Source of the DNA: Coptis chinensis
Taxonomy: Eukaryota > Streptophyta > Magnoliopsida > Ranunculales > Ranunculaceae
Reading direction: 5' to 3'
DNA: 64,000 nucleotides
Assembly (NCBI GenBank): GCA_015680905.1
Contig: JADFTS010000049.1
Coordinates: 62,001 to 126,000 of the forward strand
The stretch's first letter is position 1; the number at the start of each line of letters is the position of its first letter. The notes under the pieces are model-generated. The model saw only the letters and a program-made list of their open reading frames with translations, was not told the DNA's origin and did not search any database. This document shows positions 1 to 30,249 of the stretch, in pieces. The position numbers were made by a program, and so were the translations under genes.

Positions 1-657
1 TTGTGGCTTTTCTAATATTGAATCACAAGAATAATTTTTTGGACATAAAGGGGAAACAATCACCAATTCCTGGCACACACGCAGAAACTAACACACATGT
101 ACTCAGAAAGGTGAAAGTCAGATTGGGCTTGATAAAAGATAAGTTGTTGTTGTATTGCTCAACAATGAAAGAAAAATAATTAAAAGGGGAATATTAGCAA
201 CCAATATTCTTCATCAAGGACCGTTAACATGAGCCAATTCTTGTATATAACTAACCTAGAAAATTACAAACCTCAAGTCCAAATGGAAAGAATTCTGAAA
301 AGTAATACAAACTTCTTAAAAGATCCACAAGTTTCTGAAAACAAATCTAAGCAACCTAAAATATATTTGAATTCAGTTATCTTTTTTCTAATTTTTTTTT
401 GGAAACAGGTGTATTTACAACACATGTGATGTATCAATGGTTTTTGTGTGGCTTTTTTAATATGGAATCTAAAGTATACTTTTTAGGACAAAGAATTCAG
501 TTCACAATTTTATTTATTTATTTTTTTATATATTTTTTTTAATTAATCCCAATCTCATCAGAAAACTGGTGTATTACAACACACAAGCTGTATCAATGAT
601 TTTTGTGTGGTTTTTTTAATATGGAATATCAAGTATAATTTTTTGGACAAAGAATTC

Positions 658-694
<37 letters not shown>

Positions 695-3600
695 TTCGTC
701 AGCAAACTGGTGTATTATAACACAAATGATGTATCTACGCAACCTAAAATATATTAGAATTCAATTCTCTTTTTTCCATTTTTTTTTTTTTTTTGCAAAC
801 TAGTGTATTTACAACACATGTGATGTATCGACAGTTTTGTGTGGCATTTTTAAAATGGAATCTCAAGTATAATTTTTAGGACAAAGAATTCAGTTCTCTA
901 TTTTTTTTTATTAATTCAAATCTCATTAGAAAACTGGTGTTTTACAACATCCCATGATGTATCAACGATTTTTATGTGGTTTTTTTATTATGGAATCTCA
1001 ATTATAATTTTTAGTACAGAGAATTCTGTTCAATATTTTTTATTTTTTTTTATTAATTCCAATCTCATCAGAAAGTTGTTGTATTACAACACACATGCTG
1101 TATCAACGATTTTTGTGTGGTTTTTTTTTAATATGGAATATCAAGTATAATTTATAGGACAAAAAATTCAGTTTTTTTTTTTTTTCCAATTTCGTCAGCA
1201 AACTGGTGTATTATAACACACATGAGGTATCAACTGTTTTTGGAAAAAAAAAAGTTTCAACTATTTTTTTGTGGCTTTTCTAATATTGAATCACAAGAAA
1301 AAAATTTAGAACATAAAGGTGAAACAATCACCAATTTCAGGCACATCATGCGAAACTAACAAACATTTACTCAAAAAGGTGAAAGTTAGATTCGACGGTA
1401 AAAGATAAGTTGTTGTTGTATCTTTGCTCAACATTGAAAGAAAAAAATACTTCAAATGGAATATAAGCAACCAATATTCTTCATCAAGGACCGTTAACGT
1501 GAGCAAATTCTTGTATATAACTAACACGGAAAATTACAAGCCTCAAGTCCAAATGGAGAGATTTAAAAAGCAATTCAAATTTCTAAAAGCAGATCCACAA
1601 GTTTCTTTAAAACAAATCTACGAACCTTAAATATATTAGAATTCAATTCCCATTTCTTTTAGCAAATTGGTGTATTCCCAACACATATGATGTATCATCG
1701 GTTTTTGTGCGGCTTTTTTAATTTGGAATCTCAAGTATAATTTTTGGACAAAGAATTCAGTTCTCTTTTATTTATTTATATATTTATTTATTTATTAATT
1801 CAAACCTCATCAGAAAACCGGTGTATTACAACACCCATGCTGTATCAACGATTTTTGTATGGTTTTTTTAATATGGAATATAAAGTATAATTTTTAGGAA
1901 AAAGAATTCAGTTTTTTTTTTTCCCAATTTCGTCACCAAACTTGTGTATTATAACACACATAATGTATCAACGGTTTATTGGAAAAAAAAAGTTTCAACT
2001 ATTTTTTTGTGGATTTTCTAATATTGAATCACAAGAATAATTTTTTGGACATAAAGGTGAAACAATCACCAATTCCTGGCACACATGTAGAAACTAACAA
2101 ACATGCACTCAAAAAGGTGAAAGTCAGATTGGGCTTAATAAAAGATAAGTTGTTGTTGTACTGCTCAACAATGAAAGAAAAATAATTAAAAGGGGAATAT
2201 TAGCAACCAATATTCTTCATCAAGGACCGTTAACATGAGCCAATTCTTGTATATAACTAACCTAGAAAATTATAAGCCTTAAGTCCAAATGAAGAGAATT
2301 CTGAAAAGCAATACAAACATCTTAAAAGATCCACAACTTTCTAAAACAAATCTACCCAACCTAAAATATATTAGAATTCAATTCTCTTTTTTCCCATTTT
2401 TTTAGCAGACTGGTGTATTTCCAACATATGTGATGTATTAATGGTTTTTGTGTGGCTTTTTTAATTTGGAATCTATAGTATAATTTTTAGGACAAAGAAT
2501 TCAGTTCTCCATTTTTTTTTTTTTTATTAATTCCAATCTCATCAGAAAACTGGTGTATTACAACACTTATGCTGTATCAACGATTTTTGTGTGGTTTTTT
2601 TAATATGGAATCTCAATTATAATTTTTAGGACAGAGAATTCAGTTCACTATTTTTTATTTTTTTTATTAATTCCAATCTCATTATAAAATTGGTGTATTA
2701 CATCACACATGTTGTATCAACGATTTTTCCGTGGTTTTTTTAATTTGGAATATCAAATATAATTTTTTGGACAAAGAATTCAGTTTTTTTTTTCTCCAAT
2801 TTAGTCAGCAAACTTGTGTATTATAACACACATGATGTATCAACGGTTTTTGAAAAAAAAAAAAGTATCATCTATTTTTTTGTGGCTTTTCTTATACTGA
2901 ATAACAAGAATAATTTTTTGGACATAAAGGTGAAACAATCACAAATCCCGGCACATATGCAGAAACTAACAAAAATGTACTCAAAAAGGTGAAAGTCAGA
3001 TTGGGCTTGATAAAAGATAAGTTGTTGTTGTACTGCTCAACAATGAAAGGACCATTAACATGAGCAAATTCTTGTATATAAGTAACCAATATTCTTCCCC
3101 AAGGACCGTTAACGTGAGAAAATTCCTGTATATAACTAACCTGGAAAATTACAAGCCTCAAGTCCAAATGGAGAGAATTCTGAAAAGCTATACAAACTTC
3201 TTAAAAGATCCACAAGTTTCTGAAAACAAATCTACGCAACCTAAAATACATTAGAATTCAGTTCTTTTTTTTCCAATTTTTTTTAGCAAACTGTTGTACT
3301 TTCAACACATGTGATGTATCAACGGTTTTTCTGTGGCTTTTCTAATATGGAATCTCTAGTATAATTTTTTGGACAAAGAATTCAGTTCTCTATTTTTTTA
3401 TTTTATTTTATTAATTCCAATCTCATCAAAAAACTGGTGTATTACAACACACATGCTGTATCAACGATTTTTATGAGGTTTTTTTAATATGGAATATCAA
3501 GTATAATTTTTAGTACAAAGAATTCAGTTTTTTTTTTTTTTTTTTCCAATTTCATCAGCAAACAGGTGTATTATAACACACATGATGTATCAACGATTTT

Positions 3601-4720
3601 TTGAAAAAAAAAATTCAACAATTTTTTTTTTGGCTTTTCAAATATTGAATCGCAAGAATAATTTTTAGGACATAAAGGTTAAACAATCACCAATTCCTGG
3701 CACACATGTAAAAACTAAAAAACAAGTACTCAAAAATGTGAAAATCAGATTGGGCTTCAAAAAAGATAAGTTGTTGTGTTACTGCTCAACAATGAAAGAA
3801 AAATAATTCAAAGGGGAATATAAGCAACCAATATTCTTCATCAAGGACCGTTAACATGAGCAAATTCTTGTATATAACTAACCTGGAAAATTACAAACCT
3901 CTAGTCTAAATGGAGAGAATTCTGAAAAGTAATACAAACTTCTTAAACAATCCACAAGTTTTCGAAAACAAATCTACGCAACCTAAAATATATTAGAATT
4001 CAATTCTCTTTTTTCCCATTTTATTTAGCATACTAGTGTATTTCCAACACAGCTGATGTATCAACGGTTTTTGTGTGGCTTTTTTAATTTGGAATCTCTA
4101 GAATAATTTTTTGGACAAAGAATTTAGTTCTTTATTTTTATTTTTATTTTTATTTTATTAATTCCAATCTCTTCAGAAAATTGGTGTATTACAACACACA
4201 TGCTGTATCAAAGATTTTTGTGTTGTTTTTTAAATATGGAATTTCAATTATAATTTTTAGGACAGACAATTCAGTTCTCTATTTTTTATTTTTTTTATTA
4301 ATTCCAATCTCATCAGAAAACTGGTGTATTACAACACACATGTTGTATCAACGATTTTGTGTGGTTTTTTCAATATGGAATATCAAGTACAATTTTTAGG
4401 GCAAAAGAATTCAGTTTTTTTTTTTTTTTTTTTTTAGATCCATGAACTGTTGTATTATAACACACATGATGTATCAATGATTTTTGGAAAAAAAAAATTC
4501 AACTATATTTTTGTGGCATTTCTAATACTGAATCACAAGAATAATTTTTAGGACTTAAAAGTGAAACAATCACCAATTCCAGGCACACATGCAGAAACTA
4601 ACAAACATGTACTCAAAAAAGTGAAAGTCAGATTGGGCTTCATTAAAGATAAGTTGTTCTTGTACTTCGTAATAATGAAAGAAAAATAATTCAGAAGGAA
4701 ATATAAGCAACCAATATTCT
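1..4720. repeat. Left satellite block, first copy of a large duplication
   Basis: This block has anchor spacings 1,270, 736, 879, 742 and 883 bp. The first three match those of the block starting near 9,871 (1,247, 734, 873), and private variants are shared, for example the doubled 'ggacc-ttaac-tgagcaaat' segment at about 3,049 and 3,102 (also at 12,888 and 12,942). The first unit carries six short modules, one of them shortened at about 708-800. A 33-base T run lies at 660-692, the longest homopolymer noticed in the array. Confidence 0.8.
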
Positions 4721-6644
4721 TCATCAGGGTTCGTTAATGTTATCAAATTCTTGTATAACTAACATGTAAAATAACAAGCCCCAAGTCCAAATGGAGAGAT
4801 TTCTGAAAAGCAATATAAACTGCTAAAAAGATCCACAAGTTTTTAAAAACAAATCTACGCAACCTAAAATATATTAGAATTCAGTTCTCTTTTTTCCCAG
4901 TTTTTTTTAGCAAACTGGTGTATTTACAACACATGTGATGTATCAACGGTTTTTGTGTAGATTTTTTAATATGGAATCTCATGTATAATTTTAGGACAAA
5001 GAATTCAGTTCTCTATTTTTATTTTTATTTATTTTTTATTAATTCCAAATTCGTCAGAAAACTGGTGTATTACAACACACATGTTGTATCAACAATTTTT
5101 GTGTGGTTTTTTCAATATGAAATATCATGTATAATTTTTAGGACAAAGAATTCAGTTTTTTTTTTTTTTCCAATTTCGTCAGCAAACTGGTGTATTGTAT
5201 AACACACATGACGTATCAACATTTTTTGGGGAAAAAAAAGGATCAACTATTTTTTTGTGGCTTTTCTAATATTAAATCACAAGAATAATTTTTAGGACAT
5301 AAAGTTGAAACAATCACTAATTCCAAGCACACATGCAGAAACTAACAAACTTGTACTCAAAAAAGTGAAAGCCAGATTGGGATTCATAAAAGATAAGTTG
5401 TTGTTGTACATCGAAATAATGAAAGAAAAACAATTCAAATGGAAATATAAGCAACCAATATTCTTCATCAGGGATCATTAACGTGATCAAATTCTTGTAT
5501 AACTAACATGTAAAATTACAAGCCCCAAGTCCAAATGGAGAGATTTCTGAAAAGCAATATAAACTGCTATAAAGATCCACAAGTTTTTTAAAACAAATCA
5601 ACGCAACCTAAAATATATTAGAATTCAGTTCTCTTTTTACCCAGTTTTTTTAGCAAATTGGTGTATTTACAACAAATGTGATGTATCAACTGTTTTTGTG
5701 TAGATTTTTTAATATGGAATCTAATGTATAATTTTTAAGACAAAGAATTCTGTTCTCTATTTTGATTTATTTTTATTTTTTATTAATTCCAATTTCGTCA
5801 GAAAACTGGTGTATTATAACACACATGTTGTATCAACAATTTTTGTGTGGCTTTTTCAATATGAAATATCATGTATAATTTTTAGGACAAAGAATTCAAT
5901 TTTTTTTTTTTTTTTTTTCCAATTTCATCAGAAAACTGGTGTATTATAACACACAAGACGTATCAACATTTTTTGGGGAAAAAACAGGATCAACTATTTT
6001 TTTGTGGCTTTTCTAATATTAAATCCCAAGAATAATTTTTAGGACATAAAGTTGAAACAATCACCAATTCCAGGCACACATGCAGAAACTAACAAACTTG
6101 TACTCAAAAAAGTGAAAGCCAGATTGGGATTCATAAAAGATAAGTTGTTGTTGTACATCGAAATAATGAAAGAAAAACAATTCAAATGGAAATATAAGCA
6201 ACCAATAATCTTCATCAGGGATCGTTAACGTGATCAAATTCCTGTATAACTAACATGTAAAATTACAAGCCCCAAGTCCAAATGGAGAGATTTCTGAAAA
6301 GCAATATAAACTTCTAAAAAGATCCACAAGTTTCTGAAAACAAATCAACGCAACCTAAAATATATTAGAATTCAGTTCTCTTTTTTCCAAGTTTTTTTTA
6401 GCAAACTGGTGTATTTACAACACATGTGATGTATCAACGGTTTTTGTGTAGATTTTTTAATATGGAATCTCATGTATAATTTTTAGGACAAAGAATTCAG
6501 TTCTCTATTTTTATTTTTATTTTTTTTTATTAATTCCAAATTCGTCAGAAAACTAGTGTATTACAACACACTTGTTGTATCAACAATTTTTGAGTGGTTT
6601 TTTCAATATGAAATGTCATGTATAATATTTAGGACAAAGAATTC

Positions 6645-6680
<36 letters not shown>

Positions 6681-6760
6681 GAACCGGTGTATTATAACAC
6701 ACATGACGTATCAACATTTTTTGGGAAAAAAAAGGATCAACTATTTTTTGTGGCTTTTCT
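4711..6760. repeat. Local amplification of a 745-bp satellite unit
   Basis: Consecutive anchors at 4,711, 5,455 and 6,202 are 744 and 747 bp apart. The units share variants that are rare elsewhere, such as 'ttgtacatcgaaataatg' and 'gtgaaagccagattgggat' at about 5,400 and 6,145. They therefore look more like each other than like the array average, as expected of a recent local tandem duplication. Each unit is one long module plus two short modules. Confidence 0.75.
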
Positions 6761-7290
6761 AATATTAAATCCCAAGAATAATTTTTTTTTTCAATTTCAA
6801 TGTTGAAACAATCACCAATTCCAGGCACACATGCAGAAACTAACAAACATGTACTCATACCTCAAAGAATTCAAACCTCATCAGAAAACTGGTGTATTAT
6901 AACATACATGTTTTATCAACGATTTTTGTGTGGTTTTTTTAGTATGGAATATCAAGTTTAATTTTTAGGACAAAGAATTCATTTTTTTTCTTTTTTCCAA
7001 TTTCGTCAGCAAACTGGTGTATTATAACACACATGATGTACCAACGGTTTTTGGGGGAAAAAAAAAGGATAAACTATTTTTTTGTGGCTTTTCTAATATT
7101 AAATCACAAGAATAATTTTTAGGACATAAAGGTGAAACAATCACCAATTCCATGTACACATGCAGAAACTAACAAACATGTACACCAAAAGGTGAAAGTC
7201 AGATTGGGCTTGATAAAAGATAAATTGTTGTTGTACTGCTCAACAATGAAAGAAAAATAATTCAAAGGGAAATATAAGCAACCAATATTT
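6620..7290. repeat. Rearranged satellite unit (truncated long module)
   Basis: The anchor spacing here is 1,080 bp. A long module begins at about 6,680 but breaks off at about 6,855, soon after 'acatgcagaaactaacaaac', and runs directly into short-module sequence ('aattcaaacctcatcagaaa'). A second, complete long module then begins at about 7,010. This is a deletion or recombination junction within the array. Confidence 0.7.
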
Positions 7291-8989
7291 TTCATTAAGG
7301 ACCGTTAATGTGAGCAAATTCTTGTATATAACTAACCTGGAAAATTATGAGACTAAAGTCAAAATGGAGAGAATTCTGAAAAGTAATACAAACTTCTTAA
7401 AAGATTCACAAGTTTCTAAAAACAAATCTACACAACCTAAAATATATTAGAATTCAATTCTCTTTTTTCCTTTTTTTTTTTTTTTTTTTGCAAACTAGTG
7501 TATTTACAACACATGTGATCTATCAACGGTTTTTGTGTGGCATTTTTAATATGGAATCTCAAGTATAATTTTTAGGAGAAAGAATTCAGTTGTCTATATA
7601 TATATTTTTTATTAATTCCAATCTCATTAGAAAACTGGTGTTTTACAATGTCACATGCTGTATCAACGATTTTTGTGTGGTTTTTTTAATATGAAATCTT
7701 AATTATAATTTTTAGGACAGAGAATTCAGTTCAATATATATATATATATTTTTATTAATTCAAATCTCATCAGAAAACTGTTGTATTACAACTAACATGC
7801 TATATTAACGATTTTTGTGTGGTTTATTTAATATGGATTATAAAGTATAATTTGTTGGACAAAAAATCTAGTTTTTTTTTTCCAATTTCGTCAGCAAACT
7901 GGTGTATTATAACACACACATGATGTATCAACGGTATTTTGAAAAAAAAATGTTTCAACTATTTTTTTCTGGATTTTCTAATACTGAATCACAAGAATAA
8001 TTTTTAGGACATAAAGGTGAAACAATCACCAATTCCTGGCACACAAGTAGAAACTAACAAACATATACTCAAAAAGGTGAAAGTCAGATTGGGCTTGATA
8101 AAAGATGAATTGTTGTTGTACTGCTTAACAATGAAAGAAAATTAATTCAAAAGGCAATATAAGCAACCAATATTCTTCATCTAGGACCGTTAACGTGAGC
8201 AAATTCTTGTATATAACTAACCTGGAAAATTACAAACCTCAAGACCAAATGGAGAGAATTCTGAAAAGCAATACAAACTTCTTAAAAGATCCACAAGTTT
8301 CTGAAAACAAATCTACGCAACCTAAAATATATTAGAATTCAGTTCTCTTTTTTCCAATTTTTTTTTTGCAAACTAGTGTATTTAAAACACATGTGATGTA
8401 TCAACGGTTTTTGTGTGGCATTTTTAATATGGAATCTCAGGTATAATTTTCAGGACAAAGAATTCAGTTCTCTAGTTTTTTTTTATTAAATCCAATCTCA
8501 TCAGAAAACTTGTGTATTACAACGTCACATGTTGTATCACCGATTTTTTCGTGGTTTTTTTAATATGAAATCTCAATTATAATTTTTAGGACAGAGAATT
8601 CAGTTCACTATTTTATATTTTTTTTATTAATTCCAATCTCATCAGAAAACTGGTGTATTACAACACACATTTTGTATCAACGATTTTTGTGTGGTTTTTT
8701 TAATATGGAATCACAATTATAATTTTTAGGACAAAGAATTCAGTTTGCTATTTTTTATTTTTTATTTATTAATTCCAATCTCATCAGAAAACTGGTGTAT
8801 TACAACACACATGCTGTATCCAATTTTTCTGTGGTTTTTTACTATGGAATATCAAGTATATTTTTTAGGACAAAGAGTTCATTTTTTTATCCAATTTCGT
8901 CAGCAAACTGGTGTATTATAACACACATGATGTATCAACGGTTTTTAGAGAAAAAAAAAAAAAAAAAAAAAACTCAACTATTTTTTTTG

Positions 8990-9260
8990 TGGCTTTTCTA
9001 ATATTAAATCACAAGAATAATTTTTAAGACATAAAGTTGAAACAATCACCAATTCCAGGCACACATGCAAAACCTAACAAACATGCACTCAAAAAGGTTA
9101 AGGTCGGATTGGGAGTGATAAAAGACTTTTCTAATATTAAATCACAAGAATAATTTTTAGGACATAAAGTTGAAACAATCACCAATTCCAGGCACACATG
9201 CAGAAACTAACAAACATGTACTCAAAAAGATGAAAGTCAGATTGGGCTTTATAAAAGATA
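8990..9260. repeat. Internal duplication of about 132 bp inside a long module
   Basis: The segment from 'ttttctaatattaaatcaca' at about 8,994 recurs at about 9,127, with the metal of the copy running through 'aacaatcaccaattccagg'. This adds about 132 bp to the unit and explains its 1,153-bp spacing (long module, four short modules, plus this copy). The duplicated length is close to the short-module period. Confidence 0.75.
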
Positions 9261-9870
9261 AGTTGTTGTTGTATTACTCAATAATGAAAGAAAAATAATT
9301 CAAAGTGAAATATAAGCAACCAATATTCCTCATCAAGGACCGTTAAAGTGAGCAAATTCATGTATATAACTAACCAGGAAAATTACAAGCCTCAACTCCA
9401 AATGGAGAGATATCTGAAACGTAATACAAACTTCTAAAAATATCCACAAATTTCTGAAAACAAATCTACGCAACCTAAAATATATTAGAATTCAATTCTC
9501 TTTTTTCCCATTTTTTTTTTAGCAAATTGGTGTATTTCCAACGCATGTGATGTATCAACGGATTTTGTGTGGTTTTTTTAATTTTGAATCTCAAGTATAA
9601 TTTTTAGGACAAAGAATTCAGTTCTATATTTTTTTTAATTATTTATTTTTTTATTAATTCCAATCTAATCAGAAAACTGGTGTATTATAACACAGATGCA
9701 GTATAAATGATTTTTGTGTGGTTTTTTTATTATGGAATATCAAGTATAATTTTTACGACTAAGAATTCAGTTTTTTTTTTTTTTTTCAAATTTCGTTAGC
9801 AAACTTGTGTATTATAACACACATGATGTATCAACTATTTTTGGAAAAAAAACAAGTATCAATAGTTTTT

Positions 9871-12800
9871 TTTGTGGCTTTTCTAATATTGAATCACAAG
9901 AATAATGTTTTGGACATGAAGGGGAAACAATCACCAATTCCTGGCACACACGCAGAAACTAACACACATGTACTCAGAATGGTGAAAGTCAGATTGGGCT
10001 TGATAAAAGATAAGTTGTTGTTGTATTGCTCAACAATGAAAGAAAAATAATTCAAAGGCAAATATTAGCAACTAATATTCTTCATCAAGGACCGTTCACG
10101 TGAGCAAATTCTTGTATATAACTAACCTAGAATATTACAAACCTCAAGTCCAAATGGAGAGAATTCTGAAAAGTAATACAAACTTCTTACAAGATCCACA
10201 AGTTTCTGAAAACAAATCTAAGCAACCTAAAATATATTTGAATTCAGTTATCTTTTTTCCAATATTTTTTTTGCAAACAGGTGTATTTACAACACATGTG
10301 ATGTATCAATGGTTTTTGTGTGGCTTTTTTAATATGGAATCTCAGAGTATACTTTTTAGGACAAAGAATTCAGTTCACAATTTTATTTTTTTATTTTTTT
10401 ATATATTTTTTTTAATTAATCCCAATCTCATCAGAAAACTGGTGTATTACAACACACAAGCTGTATCAATGATTTTTGTGTGGTTTTCTTAATATGGAAT
10501 ATCAAGTATAATTTTTAGGACAAACAATTCAGTTTTTTTTTTTTTTTTTTTTTTTTCAGCAAACTGGTGTATTATAACACAAATGATGTATCTACGAAAC
10601 ATAAAATATATTAGAATTCAATTCTCTTTTTTCCAATTTTTTTTTGCAAACTAGTGTATTTACAACACATGTGATGTATCGACGATTTTGTGTGACATTT
10701 TTAAAATGGAATCTCAAGTATAATTTTTAGGACAAAGAATTCAGTTCTCTATTTTTTTTTATTAATTCCAATCTCATTAGAAAACTGGTGTTTTACAACA
10801 TCCCATGATGTATCAACGATTTTTGTGTGGTTTTTCTAATATGGAAGCTCAATTAAAATTTTTAGTATAGAGAATTCTATTCAATATTTTTTATTTTTTT
10901 TTTATTAATTCCAATCTCATCAGAAAGTTGTTGTATTACAACACACATGCTGTATCAACGATTTTTGTGTGGTTTTTTTTAATATGGAATATCAAGTATA
11001 ATTTATAGGACAAAAAATTCAGTTTTTTTTTTTTTTCCAATTTCGTCAGCAAACTGGTGTATTATAACACACATGAGGTATCAACTGTTTTTGGAAAAAA
11101 AAAAGTTTCAACTATTTTTTTGTGGCTTTTCTAATATTGAATCACAAGAAAAAAATTTAGGACATAAAGGTGAAACAATCACCAATTTCAGGCACACAAG
11201 CAGAAACTAACAAACATTTACTCAAAAAGGTGAAAGTCAGATTCGGCTTGGTAAAAGATAAGTTGTTGTTGTACTGCTCAACATTGAAAGAAAAATACTT
11301 CAAATGGAATATAAGCAACCAATATTCTTCATCAAGGACCGTTAACGTGAGCAAATTCTTGTATATAACTAACCTGGAAAATTACAAGCCTCAAGTCCAA
11401 ATGGAGAGATTTCTGAAAAGCAATTCAAATTTCTAAACATATCCACAAGTTTCTGAAAACAAATCTACGCAACCTTAAATATATTAGAATTCAATTCCCA
11501 TTTCTTTTAGCAAATTAGTGTATTTCCAACACATGTGATGTATCATCGGTTTTTGTGCGGCTTTTTTAATTTGGAATCTCAAGTATAATTTTTGGACAAA
11601 GAATTCAGTTCTCTTTTATTTATTTATATATTTATTTATTTCTTAATTCAAACCTCATCAGAGAACTGGTGTATTACAACACACATGCTGTATCAACGAT
11701 TTTTGTATGGTTTTTTTAATATGGAATATAAAGTATAATTTTTAGGACAAAGAATTCAATTTTTTTTTTCCAATTTCGTCAGCAAACTTGTGTATTCTAA
11801 CACACATGATGTATCAACGGTTTATGGGAAAAAAAAAGTTTCAACTATTTTTTTGTGGATTTTCTAATATTGAATCACAAGAATAATTTTTAAGACATAA
11901 AGGTGAAACAATCATAAATTCCTGGCACACATGTAGAAACTAACAAACATGCACTCAAAAAGGTGAAAGTCAGATTGGGCTTGATAAAAGATAAGTTGTT
12001 GTTGTACTGCTCAACAATGAAAGAAAAATAATTAAAAGTGGAATATAAGCAACCAATATTCTTCATCAAGGACCGTTAACGTGAGCAAATTCTTGTATAT
12101 AACTAACCTGGAAAATTGTAAGCCTCAAGTCCAAATGAAGAGAATTCTGAAAAGCAATACAAACATCTTAAAAGATCCACAAGTTTCTAAAACAAATCTA
12201 CCCAACCTAAAATATATTAGAATTCAGTTCTCTTTTTTCCCATTTTTTTAGCAGACTAGTGTATTTCCAACATATGTGATGTATTAACGGTTTTTGTGTG
12301 GCTTTTTTAATTTGGAATCTATAGTATAATTTTTAGGACAAAGAATTCAGTTCTCCATTTTTTTTTTATTAATTCCAATCTCATCAGAAAACTGGTGTAT
12401 TACAACACTTATGCTGTATCAACGATTTTTGTGTGGTTTTTTTAATATAGAGTCTCAATTATAATTTTTAGGACAGAGAATTCAGTTCACTATTTTTTAT
12501 TTTTTTTTATTAATTCCAATCTCATTATAAAATTGGTGTATTACATCACACATGTTGTATCAAAGATTTTTCCGTGGTTTTTTTAATATGGAATATCAAA
12601 TATAATTTTTAGGACAAAGAATTCAGTTTTTTTTTTCTCCAGTTTCGTCAGCAAACTTGTGTATTATAACACACATGATGTATCAACGGTTTTTGAAAAA
12701 AAAAGTATCATCTATTTTTTTGTGGCTTTTCTAATACTGAATAACAAGAATAATTTTTTGGACATAAAGGTGAAACAATCACCAATCCCGGCACACATGC

Positions 12801-15800
12801 AGAAACTAACAAAAATGTACTCAAAAAGGTGAAAGTCAGATTGGGCTTGATAAAAGATAAGTTGTTGTTGTACTGTTCAACAATGAAAGGACCATTAACG
12901 TGAGCAAATTCTTGTATATAAGCAACCAATATTCTTCCCCAAGGACCGTTAACGTGAGAAAATTCTTGTATATAACTAACCTGGAAAATTACAAGCCTCA
13001 AGTCCAAATGGAGAGAATTCTGAAAAGCAATACAAACTTCTTAAAAGATCCACAAGTTTCTGAAAACAAATCTACGCAACCTAAAATATATTAGAATTCA
13101 GTTCTCTTTTTTCCAATTTTTTTTAGCAAACTGGTGTACTTTCAACACGTGTGATGTATCAACGGTTTTTCTGTGGCTTTTCTAATATGGAATCTCAAGT
13201 ATAATTTTTTGGACAAAGAATTCAGTTCTCTATTTTTTTTTTTTATTAATTCCAATCTCATCAGAAAACTATTGTATTACAACGTTACAAGCTGTATCAA
13301 CGATTTTTATGTTGTTTTTTTCATATGGAATCTCAATTATAATTTTTAGGACAGAGAATTCAGTTCACAATTTTTTATTATTATTTTATTAATTCCAATC
13401 TCATCAGAAAATTGTTGTATTACAACACAAATGCTGTATCAACGATTTTTGTGTGGTTTTTTTAATATGGAATATCATGTATAATTTTTAGGACAAAGAA
13501 TTCAATTTTTTTTTTCCAATTTCTTTAGCAAACTTGTGTATTATAACACATATAATGTATCAACGGTTTTTGGGGGGAAAAAAAAGGATCGACAATTTTT
13601 TTGTGGCTTTTCTAATATTAAATCACAAGAATAATTTTTAGGACATAGAGGTGAAATAATCACCAATTCCAGGCACACATGCTGAAACTAACAAACATTT
13701 GCTCAAAAAGGTGGAAGTCAGATTGGGCTTGATAACAGATAAATTGTTGTTGTACTGCTCAACACTGAAGAAAAAATAATTCAAATGGAAATATAAGCAA
13801 ACAATATTCTTTATCAAGGACCGTTAATGTGAGCAAATTCTTGTATATAACTAACCTGGGAAATTACAAGCCTCAAGTCCAAATGGAGAGAATTCTGAAA
13901 AGCAATACAAACTTCTTAAATGATTTACAAGTTTCTGAAAACAAATTTACGCAACCTAAAATATATTAGAATTCAGTTCTCTTTTTGGCCTTTTTTTTTT
14001 AGCAAAATGGTGTATTTCCAACACATGTGATGTATCAACGTATTTTGTGTGGCTTTTTTAATTTGCATTCTCTAGTATAATTTTTAGGACAAAGAATTAA
14101 GTTCTCTATTTTTATTTTTATTTTTTTTTTATTAATTCCAATCTCTTCAGAAAACTGGTGTATTACAACACACATGATGAATGAACGATTTTTGCGTTGT
14201 TTTTTTAATAAGGAATCTCAATTCTAATTTTTAGGATAGAGAATTCAGTTCACTATTTTCTTTTATTTTTTATTAATTTCAATCTCATTAGAAAAAGTGT
14301 GTATTACAACACACATTCAGTATCAACGATTTTTGTGTGTTTTTTTTAATATGGAATATCAAGTATAATTTTTAGGACAAAGAAATCAGTTTTTTTTTTT
14401 TTTTTTCAATTCCATCAACAAACTGGTGTATTATAACACATATGATGTATCAACGATTTTTGGAAGAAAAAAAGTTCCAACTATTTTTTTTGTGGCTTTT
14501 CTAATATTGAATCACAAGAAAAAAATTTAGGACATAAAGGTGAAACAATAACCAATTCCAGGCACACATGCAGAAACTAACAAACACGTACTCAAAAAGG
14601 TTAAAGTCAAATTGTGCTTGATAAAAGATAAGTTGTTGTACTGCTTAACATTGAAAGAAAAATAATTCAATGGAAATATAAGAAACCAATCTTCTTCATC
14701 AGGGACCGTTAACGTGAGCAAATTCTTGTATATAACTAACCTGGAAAATTACAAGCCTCAAGTCCAAATGGAGATATTTCTGAAAAGTAATACAAACTTC
14801 TAAAAATATCCACAAGTTTCTGAAAACAAATCTACGCAACCTAAAATATATTAGAATTCAGTTCTCTTTTTCCCATTTTTTTTAGCAAACTGGTGTATTT
14901 TCAACACATGTGGTGTATCAACGGTTTTTATGTGGCTTTTTTCATAAGGAATATCAAGTATAATTTTTAGGACAAAGAATTAAGTTCTCATTTTTTTTTT
15001 TTTTTTTTTTATTAATTCCAATTTCATCAGAAAACTGTTGTATTACAACGTCACATGCTATATCAACTATTTTTGTGTTGTTTTTTTAATATGGAATCTC
15101 AATTATAATTTTTGGGACTGAGAATTCAGTTCTCTATTTTTTATTTTATTTTATTAATTCCAATCTCATCAGAAAACTGGTGTATTACAACACACATGCC
15201 TTATCAACGATTTTTATGAGGTTTTTTTAATATGGAATATCAAGTATAATTTTTAGTACAAAGAATTCTGTTTTTTTTTTTTTCCAATTTCGTCAGCAAA
15301 CAGGTGTATTATAACACACATGATGTATCAACGATTTTTTGAAAAAAAAAGCTTCAACAATTTTTTTTTGGCTTTTCAAATATTGAATCCCAAGAATAAT
15401 TTTTAGGACATAAAGGTTAAACAATCACCAATTCCTGGCACACATGTAAAAACTAAAAAACAAGTACTCAAAAATGTGAAAATCAGATTGGGCTTCATAA
15501 AAGATAAGTTGTTGTTTTACTGCTCAACAATGAAAGAAAAATAATTAAAAGGGGAATAGAAGCAACCAATATTCTTTATCAAGGACCGTTAACATGAGCA
15601 AATTCTTGTATATAAGTAACCTGGAAAATTACAAACCTTAAGTCTAAATGGACAGAATTCTGAAAAGTAATACAAACTTCTTAAAAGATCCACAAGTTTT
15701 CGAAAACAAATCTACGCAACCTAAAATATATTAGAATTCAATTCTCTTTTTTCCCATTTTATTTAGCAAACTAGTGTATTTCCAACACAGCTGATGTATC

Positions 15801-19400: not shown

Positions 19401-20839
19401 TTTTAATTAATTTTAATCTCATCAGAATACTGGTGTATTACAACGCATATGCTGTATCAACGATTTTTGTGAGGTTTTTTTAATATGGAATCTTAATAAT
19501 AATTTTTAGGACGGAGAATTCAGTTCACTATTTTTTTATTTTATTTTTATTAATTCCAATCTCATCAGAAAACAGGTGTATTACAACACACATGCTGCAT
19601 CAACGATTTTTGTGTGGTTTTTTGAATATGGAATATCAAGTATAATTTTTAAAACAAAGAATTCAGTTTTTTTTTTTCAAATTTCGTCAGAAAACTGGTG
19701 TATTATAACACACATGATGTATCAACAGTTTTGGAAAAAAAAATAGTATTAACTGTTTTTTTGTGGCTTTTCTAATATTGAATCACAAGAATAATTTTTA
19801 GGACATAAAGTTGAAACAATCACCAATTCTATGCACACAGGCAGAAACTAACAAACATGTACTCAAAAAGGTGAAAGTCATATTGGGCTTGTTAAAAGAT
19901 TAGTTGTTGTTGTAGTGCTCAACAATAAAAGAAAAATAATTCAAAGGGAAATATAAGCAACAAGTATTCTTTATCAAGGACCGTTAAGGTGAGCAAATTC
20001 TTGTATATAACTAACCTGGAAAATTACAAGCCTCAAGTCCAATTGGAAGAGATTTCTAAAAAGAAATACAAACTTCTAAAAAGATTCATAAGTTTCTGAA
20101 AACAAATCTACACAACCTAAAATATATTAGAATTTAGTTCTCTTTTTTCCCATTTTTTTTAGCAAACTGGTGTATTTACAACACATATTATGTATCAACG
20201 GCTTTTGTGTGGCTTTTTTAATATGGAACATCAAGTATAATTTTTAGGAAAAAGAATTCAGTTCTCTATTTTTTATTTTTTATTTTTTTTAATTCCAGTC
20301 TTATCAAAAAAAAACAGGTGTATTACAACGCACATGCTGTATTAACAATTTTTATGTGGATTTTTTAATATGGAATCATAATAATAATTTTTAGGACAGA
20401 GAATTTACTTCACTATTTTTTTATTATTATTAATAATTTAAATCTCATCAGAAAACTAGTGTATTACAACACACATGCTGTATCAATGATTTTTGTATGG
20501 TTTTTTTCATATGGAATATCAATTATAATTTTTAGGACAAAGAATTCAATTTTTTTTTTTTTCCAATTTCGTCAGAAAACTGGTGTATCCACATGATGTA
20601 TCAACAATTTTTGGGAAAAAAATATATTAACTGATTTTTTATGGCTTTTCAAATATTGAATCAAAAGAATAATTTTTAAGACATTAAAGTGAAACAATCA
20701 CCAATTCCAGGCACACATGCAGAAACTAACAAACATGTACTCAAAAAGGTGAAAGTTCGATTGGGCTTCATAAAAGATAAGTTGTTGTTGTACTTCGTAA
20801 TAATGAAAGAAAAATAACTCAAAAGGAAATATAAGCAAC
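12926..20839. repeat. Regular 880-bp higher-order units
   Basis: Nine consecutive anchor spacings are 875, 885, 880, 879, 877, 878, 883, 878 and 878 bp. Each unit is one long plus three short modules. Within the run, variants recur every second unit: 'ttggaatctctag' in the first short module at about 15,827 and 17,584, and 'cagaaactatcaaacattta' at about 17,203 and 18,962. Both pairs are about 1,757 bp apart, so a two-unit duplication overlies the 880-bp order. Confidence 0.8.
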
Positions 20840-21534
20840 CAATATTCTTCATCAGGGATCGTTAACGTGAGCAAATTCTTGTATATAACTAACCTGTAAA
20901 ATTACAAGCCCCAAGTCCTAATAGAGAGATTTCTGAAAAGCAATCAAAACTTCTAAAAAGATCCACAAGTTTCTGAAAACAAATCTACGCGACCTAAAAT
21001 ATATTAGAATTCAGTTCTCTTTTTTCCCATTTTTTTTAGCAAACTGGTGTATTTACAGCACATGTGATGTATCAATGATTTTTTTGTGGCTTTTTTAATA
21101 TGGAATCTCAAGTATAATTTTTAAGATAAAGAATTCAGTTTTCTTTTATTTTTTTTATTTTTTTTATTAATTCCAATCTCATCAGAAAACTGGTGTATTA
21201 CAACACACATGCTATATCAACGATTTTTGTGTGGTTTTTGACATATGGAATTTCAATTGTAATTTTTAGGACAAAGAATTCAGTTTTTTTTTCCAATTTT
21301 GTTAGCAAACTGGTGTATTATAAAGTTCCAACTATTTTTTTGTGGCTTTTCTAATATCTAATCACAGGAATAATTTTTAGGACATAAAGGTGAAACAATC
21401 AGCAATTCCAGGCACACGTGCAGAAACTAACAAACATGTACTCAAAAAGGTGAAAGTCAGATTGGGTTTGATAAAAGTTGTTGTTGTACTGCTCAACAAT
21501 GAAAGAAAAATAATTCAAATGGAAATATAAGCAA

Positions 21535-24500
21535 CCAATATTCTTCATCAGGGACCATTAACGTGAGAAAATTCTTGTATATAACTAACCTAGAAAATTA
21601 CAAGCCTCAAGTTCCAAATGGAGAGATTTCTGAAAAGCAATATAAACTTCTAAAAAGATTCACAAGTTTCTGAAAACTTCTAAGCAACCTAAAGTATATT
21701 TGAATTCAGTTCTCTTTTTTTCCATTTTTTTTAGCAAACTGGTGTATTTACAACAAATGTGATTTATCAACAGTTTTTGTGTGGCTTTTTAAATATGGGA
21801 TCTCAAGAGTACTTTTTAAGACAAAGAATTCAGTTCTCAATTTTTTTTTTATATATATTTTTTAATTAATTCCAATCTCATCAGAAAACTGGTGTATTAC
21901 AACACACATGCTGTATCAATGATTTTTTGTGTGGTTTTTTTACTATGGAATATCAATTATAATTTTTAGGACAAATAATTCAGTTTTTTTTTTTTTTCCA
22001 ATTTCATTAGCAAACTGGTGTATTATAACACACATGATGTCTCAATATTTTTTGGGGAAAAAAAAGGATCAACTATTTTTTAGTGGCTTTTCAAATATTG
22101 AATTAAAAGAATAATTTTTCGAACATTAAAGTGAAACAATCACTAATTCCAGGCACACATGCAGAAACTAACAAACATGTACTCAAAAAGGTGAAAGTCA
22201 TTTTGGGCTTGATAAAAGATTAGTTGTGGTTGTACTGCTCAACAATAAAAGAAAAATAATTCAAAGGTAAATATAAGCAACCAATATTATTCATCAAGGA
22301 CCGTTAACATGAGTAAATTCTTGTATATAACTAACCTGGAAAATTTCAAGCCTCAAGTCCAAATGGAGAGATTTCTGAAAAGCAATACAAACTTCTCAAC
22401 AGATCCACAAGTTTTTGAAAACAAATCTAAGCAACCAAAAATATATTAGAAATCAGTTCTCTTTTTTCCCATTTTTTTTAGCAAACTGGTGTATTTACAA
22501 CTCATGTGATGTATCAACGGTTTTTGTGTTGCTTTATTAATATGGAATCTCAAGTATAATTTTTACCACAAAGAATTTAGTTCTCTATTTTTTATTTTTT
22601 ATTTTTTTAAAGTAATTCGAACCTCATCAGAAAACTGGTGTATTACAACGCACATGTCGTATCAACGATTTTTGTGTGCTTTTTTTAATATGGAATCTTA
22701 ATAATAATTTTTAGGAAAGAGAATTCAGTTCACTATTTTTTATTTTTTTTTATTAATTCCAATCTCATCAGAAAACAGGTGTATTACAAAACACATGCTG
22801 TATCAACGATTTTTGTGTGGTTTTTTTAATATGGAATATCTAGTATAATTTTTAGGACAAACAATTCATTTTTTTTTTTTTTTTTTTCAAATTTCGTTAG
22901 CAAACTGGTGTATTATAACACATATGATGTATCAACAGTTTTTGGAAAAAAAAAAAGTATTAACTGTTTTTTTTTTTTTTTTTTTTTCTAATATTGAATC
23001 ACAAGAATAATTTTTATGACATAAAGTTGAAACAATCACCAATTACAGTCACACATGCAGAAACTAACAAACATGTACTCAAAAGGTGAAAGTCATATTG
23101 GGCTTCATAAAAGATAAGTTGTTGTTGTATTTCTCAATAATGAAAGAAAAATAATTCAAAAGAAAATATAAGCAACCAATATTCTTCATCAGGGATCGTT
23201 AACGTGAGGAAATTCTTGTATATAACTAACCTGTAAAATTACAAGCCCCTAGTCGAAGTGGAGAGATTTCTGAAAAGCAATACAAACTTCTAAAATGATC
23301 CACAAGTTTCGTAAAGCAAATCTACGCAACTTTAAATATATTAGAATTCAGTTCTCTTTTTTCCCATTTTTTTAGCAAAATGGTGTATTTACAACACATT
23401 TGATGTATCAACGGTTTTTGTGTGGCTTTTTTAATGTGGAATCTCAAGTATAATTTTTAAGACAAAGAATTCAGTTCTCTATTTTTATTTATTATTTTTT
23501 TTTTTATTAATTTCAAATTCATCAGAAAACTGGTGTATTATAACACACATGCTGTATCAACAATTTTTGTGTGGTTTTTTTAATATGGAATCTCAATTAA
23601 AATTTTTAGGACAGAGAATTCGGTTTACTATTTTTTTTTTTTTTTTACTAATTTCAATCTCATCAGAAAAATGGTGTATTACAACACACACGTTGTAGCA
23701 ACGATTTTTGTGTGGTTTTTTTAATATAGAATATAAAGTATAATTTTTAGGACAAAGAATTCAGTTTTTTTTTTTCCAATTTCAAAGCAAAGTGGTGTAT
23801 TATAACAAATATGATGTATCAACGATTTTTTTTAAAAAAAAAAGTTTCAACTATTTTTTTGTGGCTTTTCGAATATTGAATCACAAGAATAATTTTTAGG
23901 ACATAAAGGTGAAACAATCAGCAATTCCAGGCATACATGCAGAAACTAACAAACATTTACTCAAAAAGGTGAAAGTCAGATTGGGCTTGATAAAAGATAA
24001 GTTGTTGTTGTACTGCTCAACAATGAAAGAAAAATAATTCAAATGGAAATATAAGCAACCAATATTCTTCATCAGGTACCGTTAACGTGAGAAAATTCTT
24101 GTATATAACTAACCTGGAAAATTACAAGCCTCAAGTCCAAATGGAGAGATTTCTGAAAAGCAATACAAACTTCTAAAAAGATCCACAAGTCTCTGAAAAC
24201 AAATCTAAGCAACCTAAAGTATATTTGAATTCAGTTCTCTTTTTTCCTATTTTTTTTAGCAAACTGGTGTATTTACAACACATGTGATGTATCAGCAGGT
24301 TTTTTGTGGCTTTTTTAATATGGAATCTTAAGTGTACTTTTTAGGACAAAGAATTCAATTCTCAATTTTTTATTTTTTATGTTTTTTTTTAATTAATTCT
24401 AATCTCATCAAAAAAACTGTGTATTACAACACACATGCTGTATCAATGATTTTTGTGTGGTTTTTTTTAATATGGAATATCAAGTATAATTTTTAGGACA

Positions 24501-27500
24501 AAGAATTCAATTTGTTTTTTTTTTCCAATTTTGTCAGCAAACTGGTGTATTATAACACACATGATGTCTCAACGTTTTTTGGGGAAAAAAAAAGGATCAA
24601 CTATTTTTTTGTTACTTTTCTAATATTAAATCACAAGAATAATTTTTAGGACATAAAGTTGAAACAATCACCAATTCCAGGCACACATGAAGAAACTAAC
24701 AAACATGTACTCAAAAAGGTGAAAGTCATATTGGGATTGATAAAAGATTAGTTGTTGTTGTACTGCTCAACAATAAAAGAAAAATAATTCAAAAGGAAAT
24801 GTAAGCAACCAATATTCTTCATCAAGGGCCGTTAACGTGAGCAAATTCTTGTATATAGCTAACCTGGAAAATTACAAGCCTCAAGTCCAAATGGAGAGAT
24901 TTCTGGAAAGCAATACAAACTTCTAAAAATATTAACAAATTTTTGAAAACAAATCTACGCAACCAAAAATATATTAGAATTCAGTTTTCATTTTTCCCAT
25001 TTTTTTTATTAAACTGGTGTATTTTACAACACATGTGATCTATCAACGGTTTTTGTGTGGCTTTTTTAATATGGAATCTCAAGTATAGTTTTTAGCACAA
25101 AGAATTTAGTTCTCTCTTTTTTTTTTTTTTTTTTTTAATTAATTCTAATCTAATCAGAAAACTGGTGTAGTATAACGTACATGCTGTATCAACGATTTTT
25201 GTGTGGTTTTTTTAATATGGAATCTTAATAATAATTTTTAGGACAGAGAATTCAGTTCACTATTTTATTTTATTTTTTTATTAATTCCAATCTCATCAGA
25301 AAACAGGTGTATTACAATAGACATGCTATATCAACGATTTTTGTCTGGGTTTTTTAATATGGAATATCTAGTACAATTTTTAGGAAAAAGAATTCAGTTT
25401 TTTTTTTTTTTTTCATCATCAAACTGGTGTATTATAACACACATGATGTATCAACAGTTTTTGGAAAAAAAAATAAGTATTAACTGTTTTTTTGTGGCTT
25501 TTCTAATATTGAATCACTAAAATAATTTTTAGGACATAAAGGTGAAACAATCACCAATTCCAGTCACACATGCAGAAACTAACAAACATGCACTCAAAAA
25601 GGTGAAAGTCATATTGGGCTTCATAAAAGATAAGTTGTTGTTGTATTTCTCAATAATGAAAGAAAAATAATTCAAAAGGAAATATAAGCAACCAATATTC
25701 TTCATCAAGGATCGTTAACGTGAGCAAATTATTATATATAACTAACCTGTAAAATTACAATCCCCTATTCAAATGGAGATTTCTGAAAAACAGTACGAAC
25801 TTCTGAAAAGATCCACAAGTTTCTTAAAACAAATCTACCCAACCTAAAATATATTAGAATTCAGTTATCTTTTTTCCCATTTTTTTAGCAAAATGGTGTA
25901 TTTACAACACATTTGATGTATCAACGGTTTTTGTGTGGCTTTTTTAATCTAGAATCTCAAATATAATTTTTAGGACAAAGAATTCAGGTCTCTATTTTTA
26001 TTTTTATTTTTATTTTTTTTTATTAATTTCAAATTCATCAGAAAACTGGTGTATTACAACACACATGCTGTATCAACAATTTTTGTTTGGTTTTTTTTAA
26101 TATGGAATCTTAATTATAATTTTTAGGACAGAGAATTCGGTTTACTATTTTTTTATTTTTTTTATTAATTTCAATCTCATCAGAAAATTGGTGTATTACA
26201 ACACACATGTTGTATCAACGATTTTTGTGTGGTTTTTTTAATATGGAATATCAAGTATAATTTTTAGGACAAAGAATTCGGTTTTTTTTTTTTTTTTTTT
26301 TATTTCGACAGCAAACTGGTGTATTATAACACACATGATGTATCAACGATTTTTGGAAAAAAAAAGTTTCAACTATTTTTTTGTGGCTTTTCTAATATTG
26401 ATTGACAAGAATAATTTTTAGGACATAAAGGTGAAACAATCAGCAATTCCAGGCACACATGCAGAAACTATCAAACATTTACTCAAAAAGGTGAAAGTCA
26501 GATTGGGCTTCATAAAAGATAAGTTGTTGTTATACTACTCAACAATGAAAGAAAAATCATTCAAATGGAAATAGAAGCAACTAATATTCTTCATCAAGGA
26601 CCGTTAACGTGAGAAAATTCATGTATATAACTAACCTGGAAAATTACAAACCTCAAGTCCAAACGGAGATATTTCTGAAAAGCAATACAAACTTCTAAAA
26701 AGATCCACAAGTTTCTAAAAACAAATCTAAGCAACCTAAATTATATTTCAATTCAATTTTCTTTTTTCTCATTTTTTTTTGGCAAACTGGTGTATTTACA
26801 ACACATGTGATGTATCAACAGTTTTTGTGTGGCAATTTTAATGTGGAATCTCAAGTATACTTTTTAGGACAAAGAATTCTGTTCTCAATTTTATTTTATT
26901 TTTATCTTTTCTTTTAATTAATTCCAATCTCATCAGAAAATTGGTGTATTACAACACACATGCTGTATCAATGATTTTTGTGTGGTTTTTTTAATATGGA
27001 ATATCAAGTATAATTTTTAGGACAAAGAATTCAGTTTTTTTTTTTTTCAATTTCTTCAGCAAACTAGTGTATTATAACGCACATGATGTATCAACATTTT
27101 TTGGGGAAAAAAAATGATCAACTATTTTTTTGTGGCTTTTCTAATATTAAATCACAAGAATAATTTTTAGGACATAAAATTGAAACAATCACCAATTCCA
27201 GGCACACATGCAGAAACTAACAAACATGTACTCAAAAAGGTGAAAGTCATATTCGTCTTGATAAAAGATTAGTTGTTGTTGTACTGCTCAATAATAAAAG
27301 AAAAATAATTCAAAGGATAAGGAACCAATATTCTTCATTAAGGACCATTAACGTGAGCAAATTCTTGTATATAACTAACCTGGAAAATTACAACCCTCAA
27401 GTCCAAATTGAGAGATTTCTAAAAAGCAATACAAACTTCTAAAAAGATCAACAAGTTTCTGAAAACAAATCTACGCAACCTAAAATATATTAGAATTCAG

Positions 27501-29910
27501 TTCTCTTTTTTCCTATTTTTTTTTTAAACTGGTGTATTTACAACACATATTATGTATCAACTGTTTTTGTGTTGCTTTTTTAATATGGAATATCAAGTAT
27601 AATTTTTAGCAAAAAGAATTCAGTTCTCTATTTTTTATTTTTTATTTTTTTATTAATTCCGGACTCATCAAAAAACTGGTGTATTACAACGTACATGCTG
27701 TATCAACGATTTTTGTGTGGTTTTTTTAATATGGAATCGTAATAAAAAAATTTAGGACAGAGAATTCAGTTCACTATTTTTTTTTTTATTAATTCCAATC
27801 CCATCAGAAAACTAGTGTATTACAACACACATGCTGTATCAACGATTTTTGTGTGGTTTTTTTTCATATGGAATATCAGATATAATATTTAGGACAAAGA
27901 ATTTAGTTTTTTTTTTTTCAATTTTGCCAGCAAACTGGTGTATTATAACACACATGATGTCTCAACTGTTTTTGGAAATAAAAAAGTATTAACTGTTTTT
28001 TTGTGGCTTTTCTAATATTGAATCACAAGAATAATTTTTAGGACATAAAGGTGAAACAATCACCAATTCCAGGCACACATGCAGAAACAAACAAACATGT
28101 ACTCAAAAAAGTGAAAGTCAGATTGGTCTTCAAAAAAGATAAGTTGTTTTTGTACTTCGTAATAATGAAAGAAAAATAATTCAAAAGGAAATATAAGCAA
28201 CCAATATTCTTCACCAGGGATCGTTAACGTGAGCAAATTCTTTTATATAACTAACCTGTAAAATTACAAGCCCCAAGTCCAAATGGAGATATTTCTGAAA
28301 AGCAATACAAACTTCTAAAAAGATCCACAAGTTTCTTAAAACAAATCTATGCAACCTAAAATTTTTAGGACAAAGAATTCAGTTTTTTTTTTTTTTCCAA
28401 TTTCGACAGCAAACTGGTGTATTATAACACACATTATGTATCAACGATTTTTGAAAAAAAAAAAAGTTTCAACTATTTTTTTGTGGCTTTTCTAATATTG
28501 AATCACAAGAATAATTTTTAGGACATAAAGGTGAAACAATCAGCAATTCCAGGCACAGATGCAGAAACTAACAAACATTTATTCAAAAAGGTGAAAGTCA
28601 GACTGGGCTTGATAATAGATAAGTTGTTGTTGTACTGCTCAAAAATGGAAGAAAAATAATTCAAATGGAAATATAAGCAACTAATATTCTTCATCAGGGA
28701 CCGTTAACGTGAGAAAATTCTTGTATATAACTAACCTGGAAAATTACAAGCCTCAAGTCCAAATGGAGATATTTTTGAAAAGCAATACAAACTTCTAAAA
28801 TGATCCACAAGTTTCTGAAAACAAATCTAAGCAACCGAAAGTATATTTGAATTCAGTTCTCTTTTTTCCCATTTTTTTTAGCAAACTGGTGTATTTACAA
28901 CACATGTGATGTATTAACAATTTTTGTGTGGCTTTTATAATATGGAATCTCAAGTATACATTTTAGGACAAAGAATTCAATTCTCAATTTTTTTTTTTAT
29001 GTTTTTTTTTAATTAATTTCAATCTCATCAGAAAACTAGTGTATTACAACACACATGCTGTATCATTGATTTTTTTGTGGTTTTTTTAATATGGAATATC
29101 AAGTATAATTTTTAGGACAAAAAATTCAGTTTTTTTTTTTTTCCAATTTCGTCAGCAAACTGGTGTATACACATGATGTATCAACGTTTTTTGGGGGAAA
29201 AAAATGATCAGCTATTTTTTTGTGGCTTTTCTAATATTAAATCACAAGAATAATTTTTAGGACATAAAATTGAAACAATCACCAATTCCAGGCACACATG
29301 CAGAAATAAACAAACATGTACTCAAAAAGGTGAAAGTCATATTGGGATTGATAAAAGATTAGTTGTTGTTGTACTGCTCAACGACCAAAGAAAAATAATT
29401 CAAAGGGAAATATATGCAACCAATATTCTTTATCAAGGACCGTTAACGTGAGCAAATTCTTGTATATAACTAACCTGGAAAATTACAAGCCTCAAGTCCA
29501 AATGGAGAGATTTCTAAAAAGCAATACAAACTTCTAAAAAGATCCACAAGTTTCTGAAAATAAATCTACGCAACCTAAAATATATTAGAATTTAGTTCTC
29601 TTTTTTCCCATTTTTTTTTTAGCAAATTGGGGTATTTACAACACATGTTATGTATCAACTGTTTTTGTGTGGCTTTTTTAATATGGAATATCAAGTATAA
29701 TTTTTAGGACAGGGAATTTAGTTCATTATTTTTTATTAATTCCAATCTCATCAGAAAACTGGTGTATTACAACACACATGCTGTATCAACGATTTTTGTG
29801 ATTTTTTTAATATAGAATATCAAGTATAATTTTTAGGACAAAGAATTCAGTTGTTTTTTTTTTTCAAATTTCGTCAGCAAACTGGTGTATTATAACACAC
29901 ATGATGTATC
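21535..29910. repeat. 2.52-kb three-unit super-repeat at the right end of the array
   Basis: Anchor spacings read 746, 894, 884, then 750, 883, 889, then 744, 876, 480, 739. Two full three-unit periods are 2,524 and 2,522 bp. A third is shortened to about 2,100 bp because one unit lost all its short modules (28,201-28,681). The private variant 'ctaagcaacctaaagtatat' or a close relative marks one unit of each period at about 21,680, 24,205, 26,727 and 28,829. The array ends at 29,910 within a short/long module core. Confidence 0.8.
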
Positions 29911-30245
29911 TTCTTACAAGTTTGTATTTCGGAGGATAAGATTTGTGATTCAGAAAGGACTTGCAGTGCAACTTGTTGTATGAGGAAGCTTGCAAAGCTA
30001 ACCAACATTGTTTCATTCTGTTTAATTTTAAAACTTTCGGTTTCTTAGAACAACAAAGTTGAGCTCCTCAAGCGACTTTAGAAAGTTATGGAAAGTAACA
30101 TAATGACAGCTGGTTCTTACAAGTTTGTATTTCGGAGAATAAGATTTGTCATTCAGAAAGGACTTGCTACGCAATTTGTTGTACGCTTGTCCTAATCATT
30201 TGTAAAACTCGTTATCATTATCGATAAAATTTTCACTTAAAAATA
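29911..30245 (+). mobile_element. 3' tail fragments of an RT-bearing retroelement without LTRs (internally duplicated)
   Basis: The segment from 'gaggaagcttgcaaagctaa' (about 29,981) to 'cgcttgtcctaatcatttgt' matches the 3' end of the longer copy at 32,459-32,700 closely by eye. In front of it, 29,911-29,979 is a second copy of 30,114-30,183 (both start 'ttcttacaagtttgtatttc'), so about 203 bp was tandemly duplicated. The fragment directly abuts the satellite. It is a decayed remnant with no coding capacity. Confidence 0.75.
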
Positions 30246-30249
30246 AATT

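Follow-up and report, generated by a model that had tools for sequence, protein, structure and literature searches.

The first 29.9 kb of the Coptis chinensis DNA stretch analysed in the present study (64,000 bp, called the window below and corresponding to C75:62001-126000, where C75 is contig JADFTS010000049.1) are occupied by part of a satellite array with units of stepped length. The assembly comprises 935.6 Mb in 116 contigs. On C75, which is 254,493 bp long, the array extends from position 20,484 to 91,910 (about 71 kb), with one 2.7-kb break and one reversal of orientation. Because a CCCTAAA repeat of about 1.5 kb (C75:1-1,551) stands at the start of the contig, the C75 array is a subtelomeric satellite; the array of the same family on contig C7 reaches position 97,179,950 of 97,188,538 in the stretch read. 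Within C75:1-2079, the telomere repeat is noisy and is followed by short tandem repeats of the TGCTATTTTAGC type. None of the five listed open reading frames of at least 150 amino acids falls within window positions 1-29,910, on which ground a coding function was rejected, and no Rfam match at the gathering score was obtained anywhere in the window. The coordinates of the individual features are collected in Table 1.

Cutting the units by slot profiles built from the four-module window units distinguished four short modules, A, B, C and D, the last of which leads into a long module. In these four-module units, identity within slots A, B, C and D was 0.88-0.89 and between slots 0.78-0.85, i.e., the same slot was more alike across units than were the monomers within one unit, which is the pattern of a higher-order repeat. 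A, B and C were 0.82-0.85 identical to one another and each was 0.78-0.80 identical to D. The head of the long module matched module A at 50 of 57 positions in the ABCD family and at 53 of 57 in the AD family, with alignment scores of 79 and 94, respectively, whereas 300 shuffles of two-base blocks reached at most 31 and 27; the claim of a preliminary description of this DNA, that the long module carries the core of the short one, was thus confirmed. The tail following the insert matched module C at 31 of 38 positions (score 39, shuffle maximum 38), a weak match if taken alone. The insert itself measured about 317 bp (boundaries placed by eye; 33% guanine plus cytosine in the consensus), close in size to the approximately 330 bp of extra sequence proposed earlier. 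With a module head before the insert and a module tail after it, the unit reads as a set of short modules, one of which (D) is apparently interrupted and so becomes the long module.

We tentatively suggest, at somewhat less than even chances, that the family as a whole owes its register to one insertion event, in which about 317 bp entered a monomer of a simple satellite with a 120-147 bp repeat. If so, the interrupted monomer would be the set boundary of the higher-order unit, its uninterrupted neighbours would be free to vary in number, and the ladder of 0, 1, 2, 3 and 4 further modules would show how a higher-order repeat starts. The opposite order of events, in which the long monomer is ancestral and the short modules are later internal subrepeats produced by slippage, as in ribosomal spacers, is possible, if rather doubtful, and concerns the origin only, leaving the mechanism of the stepping unchanged. 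It would agree with the presence of the long module in every array read, with no short-only array among the stretches read, and with the slightly closer similarity of A, B and C to one another than to D, but the long module reads as a short module that has been split, by its head and more weakly by its tail, and the short module would need a precise loss of the insert. Derivation of the array from a mobile element that carried tandem repeats internally (a long terminal repeat (LTR) element, a Helitron or a foldback type), of which the insert would be a remnant, has precedents: according to the available parts of the reports, nine of 11 major satellites of Lathyrus sativus come from tandem repeats within LTR retrotransposons (PMC7004042), and a Drosophila satellite arose from a foldback element (PMC4079207). 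Such a derivation is nevertheless unlikely here, since no inverted ends were seen in the insert (its local score of 18 against its own reverse complement is at the shuffle level obtained against the modules), its similarity to A, B and C did not exceed that of shuffles, and it had no BLAST match at 0.01 in the array flanks read.

A search of window positions 1-30,000 with one long module as query recovered 35 full long modules, which is the number of anchor positions counted in the preliminary description, and two fragments. Most of the 34 spacings between them (29) fell into three narrow classes, of 480 bp (one), 733-752 bp (10) and 867-896 bp (18), and the other five measured 701, 1,080, 1,153, 1,248 and 1,268 bp (one each). 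Module order tracked length: the 32 spacings free of long-module fragments comprised 18 ABCD units, 10 ACD units, one unit with D only (480 bp), two fused pairs and one off-step unit (701 bp), and in the remaining two, of 1,080 and 1,153 bp, a fragment of the long module was present between the anchors. The earlier list of spacings had the classes right and omitted those of 701 and 1,080 bp. Its formula, 470 bp plus n times about 135 bp, was right in making the lengths stepped; the constant step of 135 bp had to be rejected, since the class means differ by about 121, 147, 131 and 112 bp, i.e., by steps of about 112-147 bp. Similarly, the 1,153-bp unit had been read correctly as four modules plus an internal copy, and the six short modules assigned to each of the 1,248- and 1,268-bp units gave way to a fusion of two units, ACD and ABCD, with loss of a long module.

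The same stepped lengths were found in several other arrays. Among 357 first-look candidates, the best 40 were scored, giving nine contigs with the family, and on these contigs, the stretches of array surrounding the best matches were read. In all, 224 adjacent long-module pairs were obtained, of which 22 with a long-module fragment between them were left out and 202 were clean. Over all arrays read, the AD class measured 601 bp (standard deviation (sd) 7.5; 43 units), the ACD class 748 bp (sd 12.4; 38 units), the ABCD class 879 bp (sd 12.7; 46 units) and the ACCCD class 991 bp (sd 18.8; 13 units); the remaining 62 clean units had other module orders. The classes of about 601 bp (n=1) and 991 bp, both absent from the window, occur on other contigs. 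AD units made up 42 of the 65 clean units on contigs C85, C15, C64 and C18, and 58 of the 65 measured 560-630 bp. The label D was also given to four further units, one on each of these four contigs, which measure 416-446 bp and begin with a truncated long module. Outside the plus-strand arm of C75, 161 clean units were available (from the eight other contigs and the minus-strand arm of C75), 151 of them of 440-1,060 bp; 113 of these 151 lay within 25 bp of 470+135n, with 62 expected if lengths were uniform, so that the comparison proposed in the preliminary description came out in its favour, although the binomial tail (4e-17) exaggerates the strength of this result, as the units are related by descent and not independent. 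When all arrays were pooled and the five class values served as reference instead, 159 of the 189 units measuring 440-1,060 bp deviated from one of them by no more than 25 bp; uniform lengths would give 78, but the class values were derived from the same data. The mean identity of long modules, compared here in place of whole units, was 0.885 for the window, and within-array values were 0.89-0.94.

The occurrence of stepped classes on C7 and six other contigs, and less cleanly on C2, makes it most improbable that the stepped lengths or the array order are artefacts of assembly. What could arouse such a suspicion is the character of C75 itself, a 254-kb contig with a noisy telomere repeat at its start and an orientation switch (C75:51,737-51,747, ~51,740) within a poly-T tract, where the subfamily changes as well. 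The long modules of the telomere-side arm, however, had a mean identity of 0.923 to those of C2 against 0.890 to those of the window arm; the two C75 arms are therefore different subfamilies, which argues against a simple fold-back copy. The switch itself is either a real inversion or an assembly join.

Individual changes of module number could be followed at the joints. Aligned from the late part of one long module up to the following long module, the paralogous units starting at 2923 and 12763 differ by one 138-bp gap that corresponds to module B; towards the next long module, their identity falls and the poly-T runs differ. In AD units, one module is a hybrid with the head of A and the tail of C. 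Both this hybrid and the joint of the 480-bp unit to the tail of module C are predicted by in-register exchange, and, together with the module B gap, they are what exchange or slippage between out-of-step modules leaves behind. The 1,248- and 1,268-bp fusions contain the same joint, gtatctacg, which links the head of D to the tail of the long module with loss of about 359 bp of the latter; this common joint indicates that two units were fused by long-module loss and then copied together with a larger block. Joints out of register were seen directly as well: the 701- and 1,080-bp units are off the grid, and the 389-bp unit at C75:59730, compared with its 885-bp counterpart at C75:69124, lost all short modules at such a joint, with about three shared bases (judged by eye).

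Table 1 Features of the window (window coordinates unless marked C75)
Feature	Position	Strand	Remarks
Satellite array, window part	1..29910	+	Continues upstream to C75:20,484; ends at 29,910
First copy of duplicated block, window part (4 of 9 units)	44..3670	+	Unit starts of whole copy C75:57905-64923
1,268-bp unit, fused ACD + ABCD	44..1311	+	Joint at about 733-742; most of one long module lost
Example of insert within long module	2058..2374	+	About 317 bp
ACD unit, 748 bp	2923..3670	+	Module B absent at about 3403; paralogue of 12763-13643 (alignment)
Second copy of duplicated block (9 units)	5298..13643	+	Unit starts C75:67298-74763; mean long-module identity 0.965
1,080-bp off-step unit	6045..7124	+	Truncated long-module fragment 6800-6858 and second CD pair
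1,153-bp unit	8010..9162	+	A, two B-like modules, C, D head; 133-bp duplication in long module (fragment 9030-9126)
1,248-bp unit, second copy of ACD + ABCD fusion	9915..11162	+	Joint at about 10,590
ABCD unit, 881 bp	12763..13643	+	Paralogue of 2923-3670 (alignment); long-module identity 0.976
Module B, 138 bp	13243..13380	+	Absent in paralogue 2923-3670; breakpoints in matching AT-rich tails
701-bp off-step unit	20682..21382	+	Shortened D head
480-bp unit, long module + D only (n=0)	28044..28523	+	Long-module tail joined in register to module C tail
Subtilase gene	39,816-42,254	-	Single open reading frame of 812 aa; inhibitor, PA and fn3-like domains

The array is very probably a non-coding subtelomeric satellite with higher-order structure, in which unit lengths are stepped by gain and loss of whole modules. 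The basic monomer measures about 120-147 bp, the diverged monomers A, B, C and D make up one unit, and D, with about 317 bp intervening, is the long module. The similarity of the modules may let chromatids or chromosomes pair with a shift of one or more modules within the unit, and exchange or replication slippage at matching positions would then add or remove whole modules, from which unit lengths in steps would follow. Larger events would copy blocks of many units, chromosome ends would exchange material, and rarer joints out of register would yield the off-step units. The exchange mechanism and its timing are presumed from the products now seen in the arrays, and the array would have a passive role as subtelomeric DNA, with no coded function. 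The steps might instead be kept by selection, for example through phased nucleosomes or through protein binding to the long module at a set spacing. The narrow spread within classes (sd 7-19 bp) would suit this, but it is very improbable in view of the unequal steps, the mixing of classes in the window and the copying of off-step units along with the block. Under gain and loss of whole modules, unit length counts modules and the slots can be recognised, so that individual gains and losses can be read singly; the duplicated block and the class-biased arrays (favouring 601 bp on four of the contigs, and 748 and 879 bp in the window) offer a natural test case for the building and erosion of higher-order structure by unequal exchange outside centromeres, which implies no coded function.

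Larger events were observed as a duplication of a nine-unit block, with copies about 9.4-9.9 kb apart and a mean long-module identity of 0.965. In a long-module tree of 226 tips, 150 of them labelled, the number class changed at least 26 times, compared with a mean of 75.9 and a minimum of 66 in 100 shuffles; for the C75 plus-strand arm alone, five changes were counted against a shuffled mean of 11.8 (minimum 8). Classes are therefore inherited and copied, and at the same time the 26 or more changes mean that they arose repeatedly or were unlinked by recombination. The AD arrays of C15, C18, C64 and C85 (contigs of 199-245 kb) match one another closely, including the rearranged units they contain, and long runs of matching units are common to all four. 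Units from these four contigs showed no sorting by contig of origin (49 changes against a mean of 38 after shuffling), and the four are therefore copies of one locus type, representing either duplicated chromosome ends or unmerged haplotypes. Moreover, among the eight other contigs, five (C85, C15, C64, C18 and C91) have flanks containing blocks of more than 150 bp with 68-97% identity to the telomere-side flank of C75, as would be expected if chromosome ends had exchanged material; for C50, C7 and C2, no block common with the C75 flank was found in the 0.4-2.1 kb of flank or gap compared.

Several observations weigh against the overall interpretation. Five of the 34 window spacings require separate explanations, and the clean n=0 form (long module plus D) is a single unit, that of 480 bp in the window. 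No clustering of classes was found in the window for the two main classes (14 of 28 neighbours alike, 14.4 expected, p 0.64), which speaks against local spreading, and over the whole plus-strand arm of C75, 22 of 36 neighbours were alike against 17.5 expected (p 0.089). The module labels are noisy, as in the 389-bp unit at C75:59730, which was called B though its alignment contains no short module. The C2 array is blurred, 19 of its 25 clean units being spread across 866-1,019 bp, and its position (94.525-94.553 Mb of 114.4 Mb), far from the contig end, means that the family is not strictly subtelomeric; this array is the one most similar to the inverted C75 arm. Finally, one assembly cannot separate exchange, slippage and gene conversion.

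Unit copies of human higher-order repeats are 95-99% identical. The identity of the long modules in the present arrays, about 0.89-0.94, is below this level, so the C. chinensis array works like a higher-order repeat and is classified as a subtelomeric satellite, consisting as it does of head-to-tail non-coding copies in a long array. It is a new family of such satellites that evolves in a known way and not a new kind of element, the one unusual point being the interrupted monomer that sets the register. The family was not named in the titles and opening abstract text covered by a literature search, and six strings from the array had no match in paper texts, a weak negative since papers seldom print such strings.

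The closest parallel for the stepping is human alpha satellite D17Z1, a 16-mer with 15-, 14-, 13- and 12-mer forms that most likely resulted from unequal exchange (PMC3966626). Here, too, units differ by whole numbers of monomers with in-register breakpoints (the 138-bp module and the A/C hybrid), accompanied by joints out of register. D17Z1, however, is centromeric with 171-bp monomers, and the available part of that report describes no interrupted monomer, whereas the present satellite is subtelomeric, from a plant, and has one. Tandem arrays beside telomeres are also formed by the potato satellites CL14 and CL34 (the latter divided into subfamilies and containing short direct subrepeats), for which exchange between chromosome ends was proposed (PMC3276127), by the khipu satellite of Phaseolus with a 528-bp unit (PMC3797529), and by TcSAT2 of Tanacetum (897 bp, 29.4% guanine plus cytosine, subrepeats not clearly structured; PMC6532368). 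The available parts of these three accounts contain no ladder of whole modules, the comparison with CL34 and khipu being one of descriptions only. Identity with TcSAT2 was rejected, as its two published primers, the sole test applied, are absent from the window and the arrays read. In a tomato satellite derived from the ribosomal spacer, the spacer-like units vary in length chiefly with how much of one subrepeat they contain, and segmental duplication occurs as well (PMC2679016); in the text available, its type I subrepeat is 52-53 bp, and the present window gave no Rfam match at the gathering score. Two allelic copies of the Tetris foldback element of Drosophila virilis with three and four repeats of a 220-bp satellite, possibly produced by unequal exchange (PMC4079207), resemble the paralogous units described above in differing by one repeat, but as far as that account goes, the repeats lie within long terminal inverted repeats of a transposon, and none were seen here.

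Plant genes lie to the right of the array; one encodes an FLZ zinc finger and another a subtilase in which PA and fn3-like domains are present. The TTTAGGG type of the telomere is likewise in keeping with a plant. Window positions 29,980-30,247 and 32,457-32,727 are related to each other (84% over 271 bp) and belong to a degenerate repeat of coding-like character, which is also matched at six sites within the C75 flank on the telomere side. Of six coding-like pieces taken from the region right of the array, none matched Pfam at 0.001 (one reached E 0.14). Adjoining the array at window positions 30,288-30,460 is a 34-bp tandem repeat (aactgatgtatattaagttacc) that is faintly like the head of the short module, a resemblance that may be due to chance.

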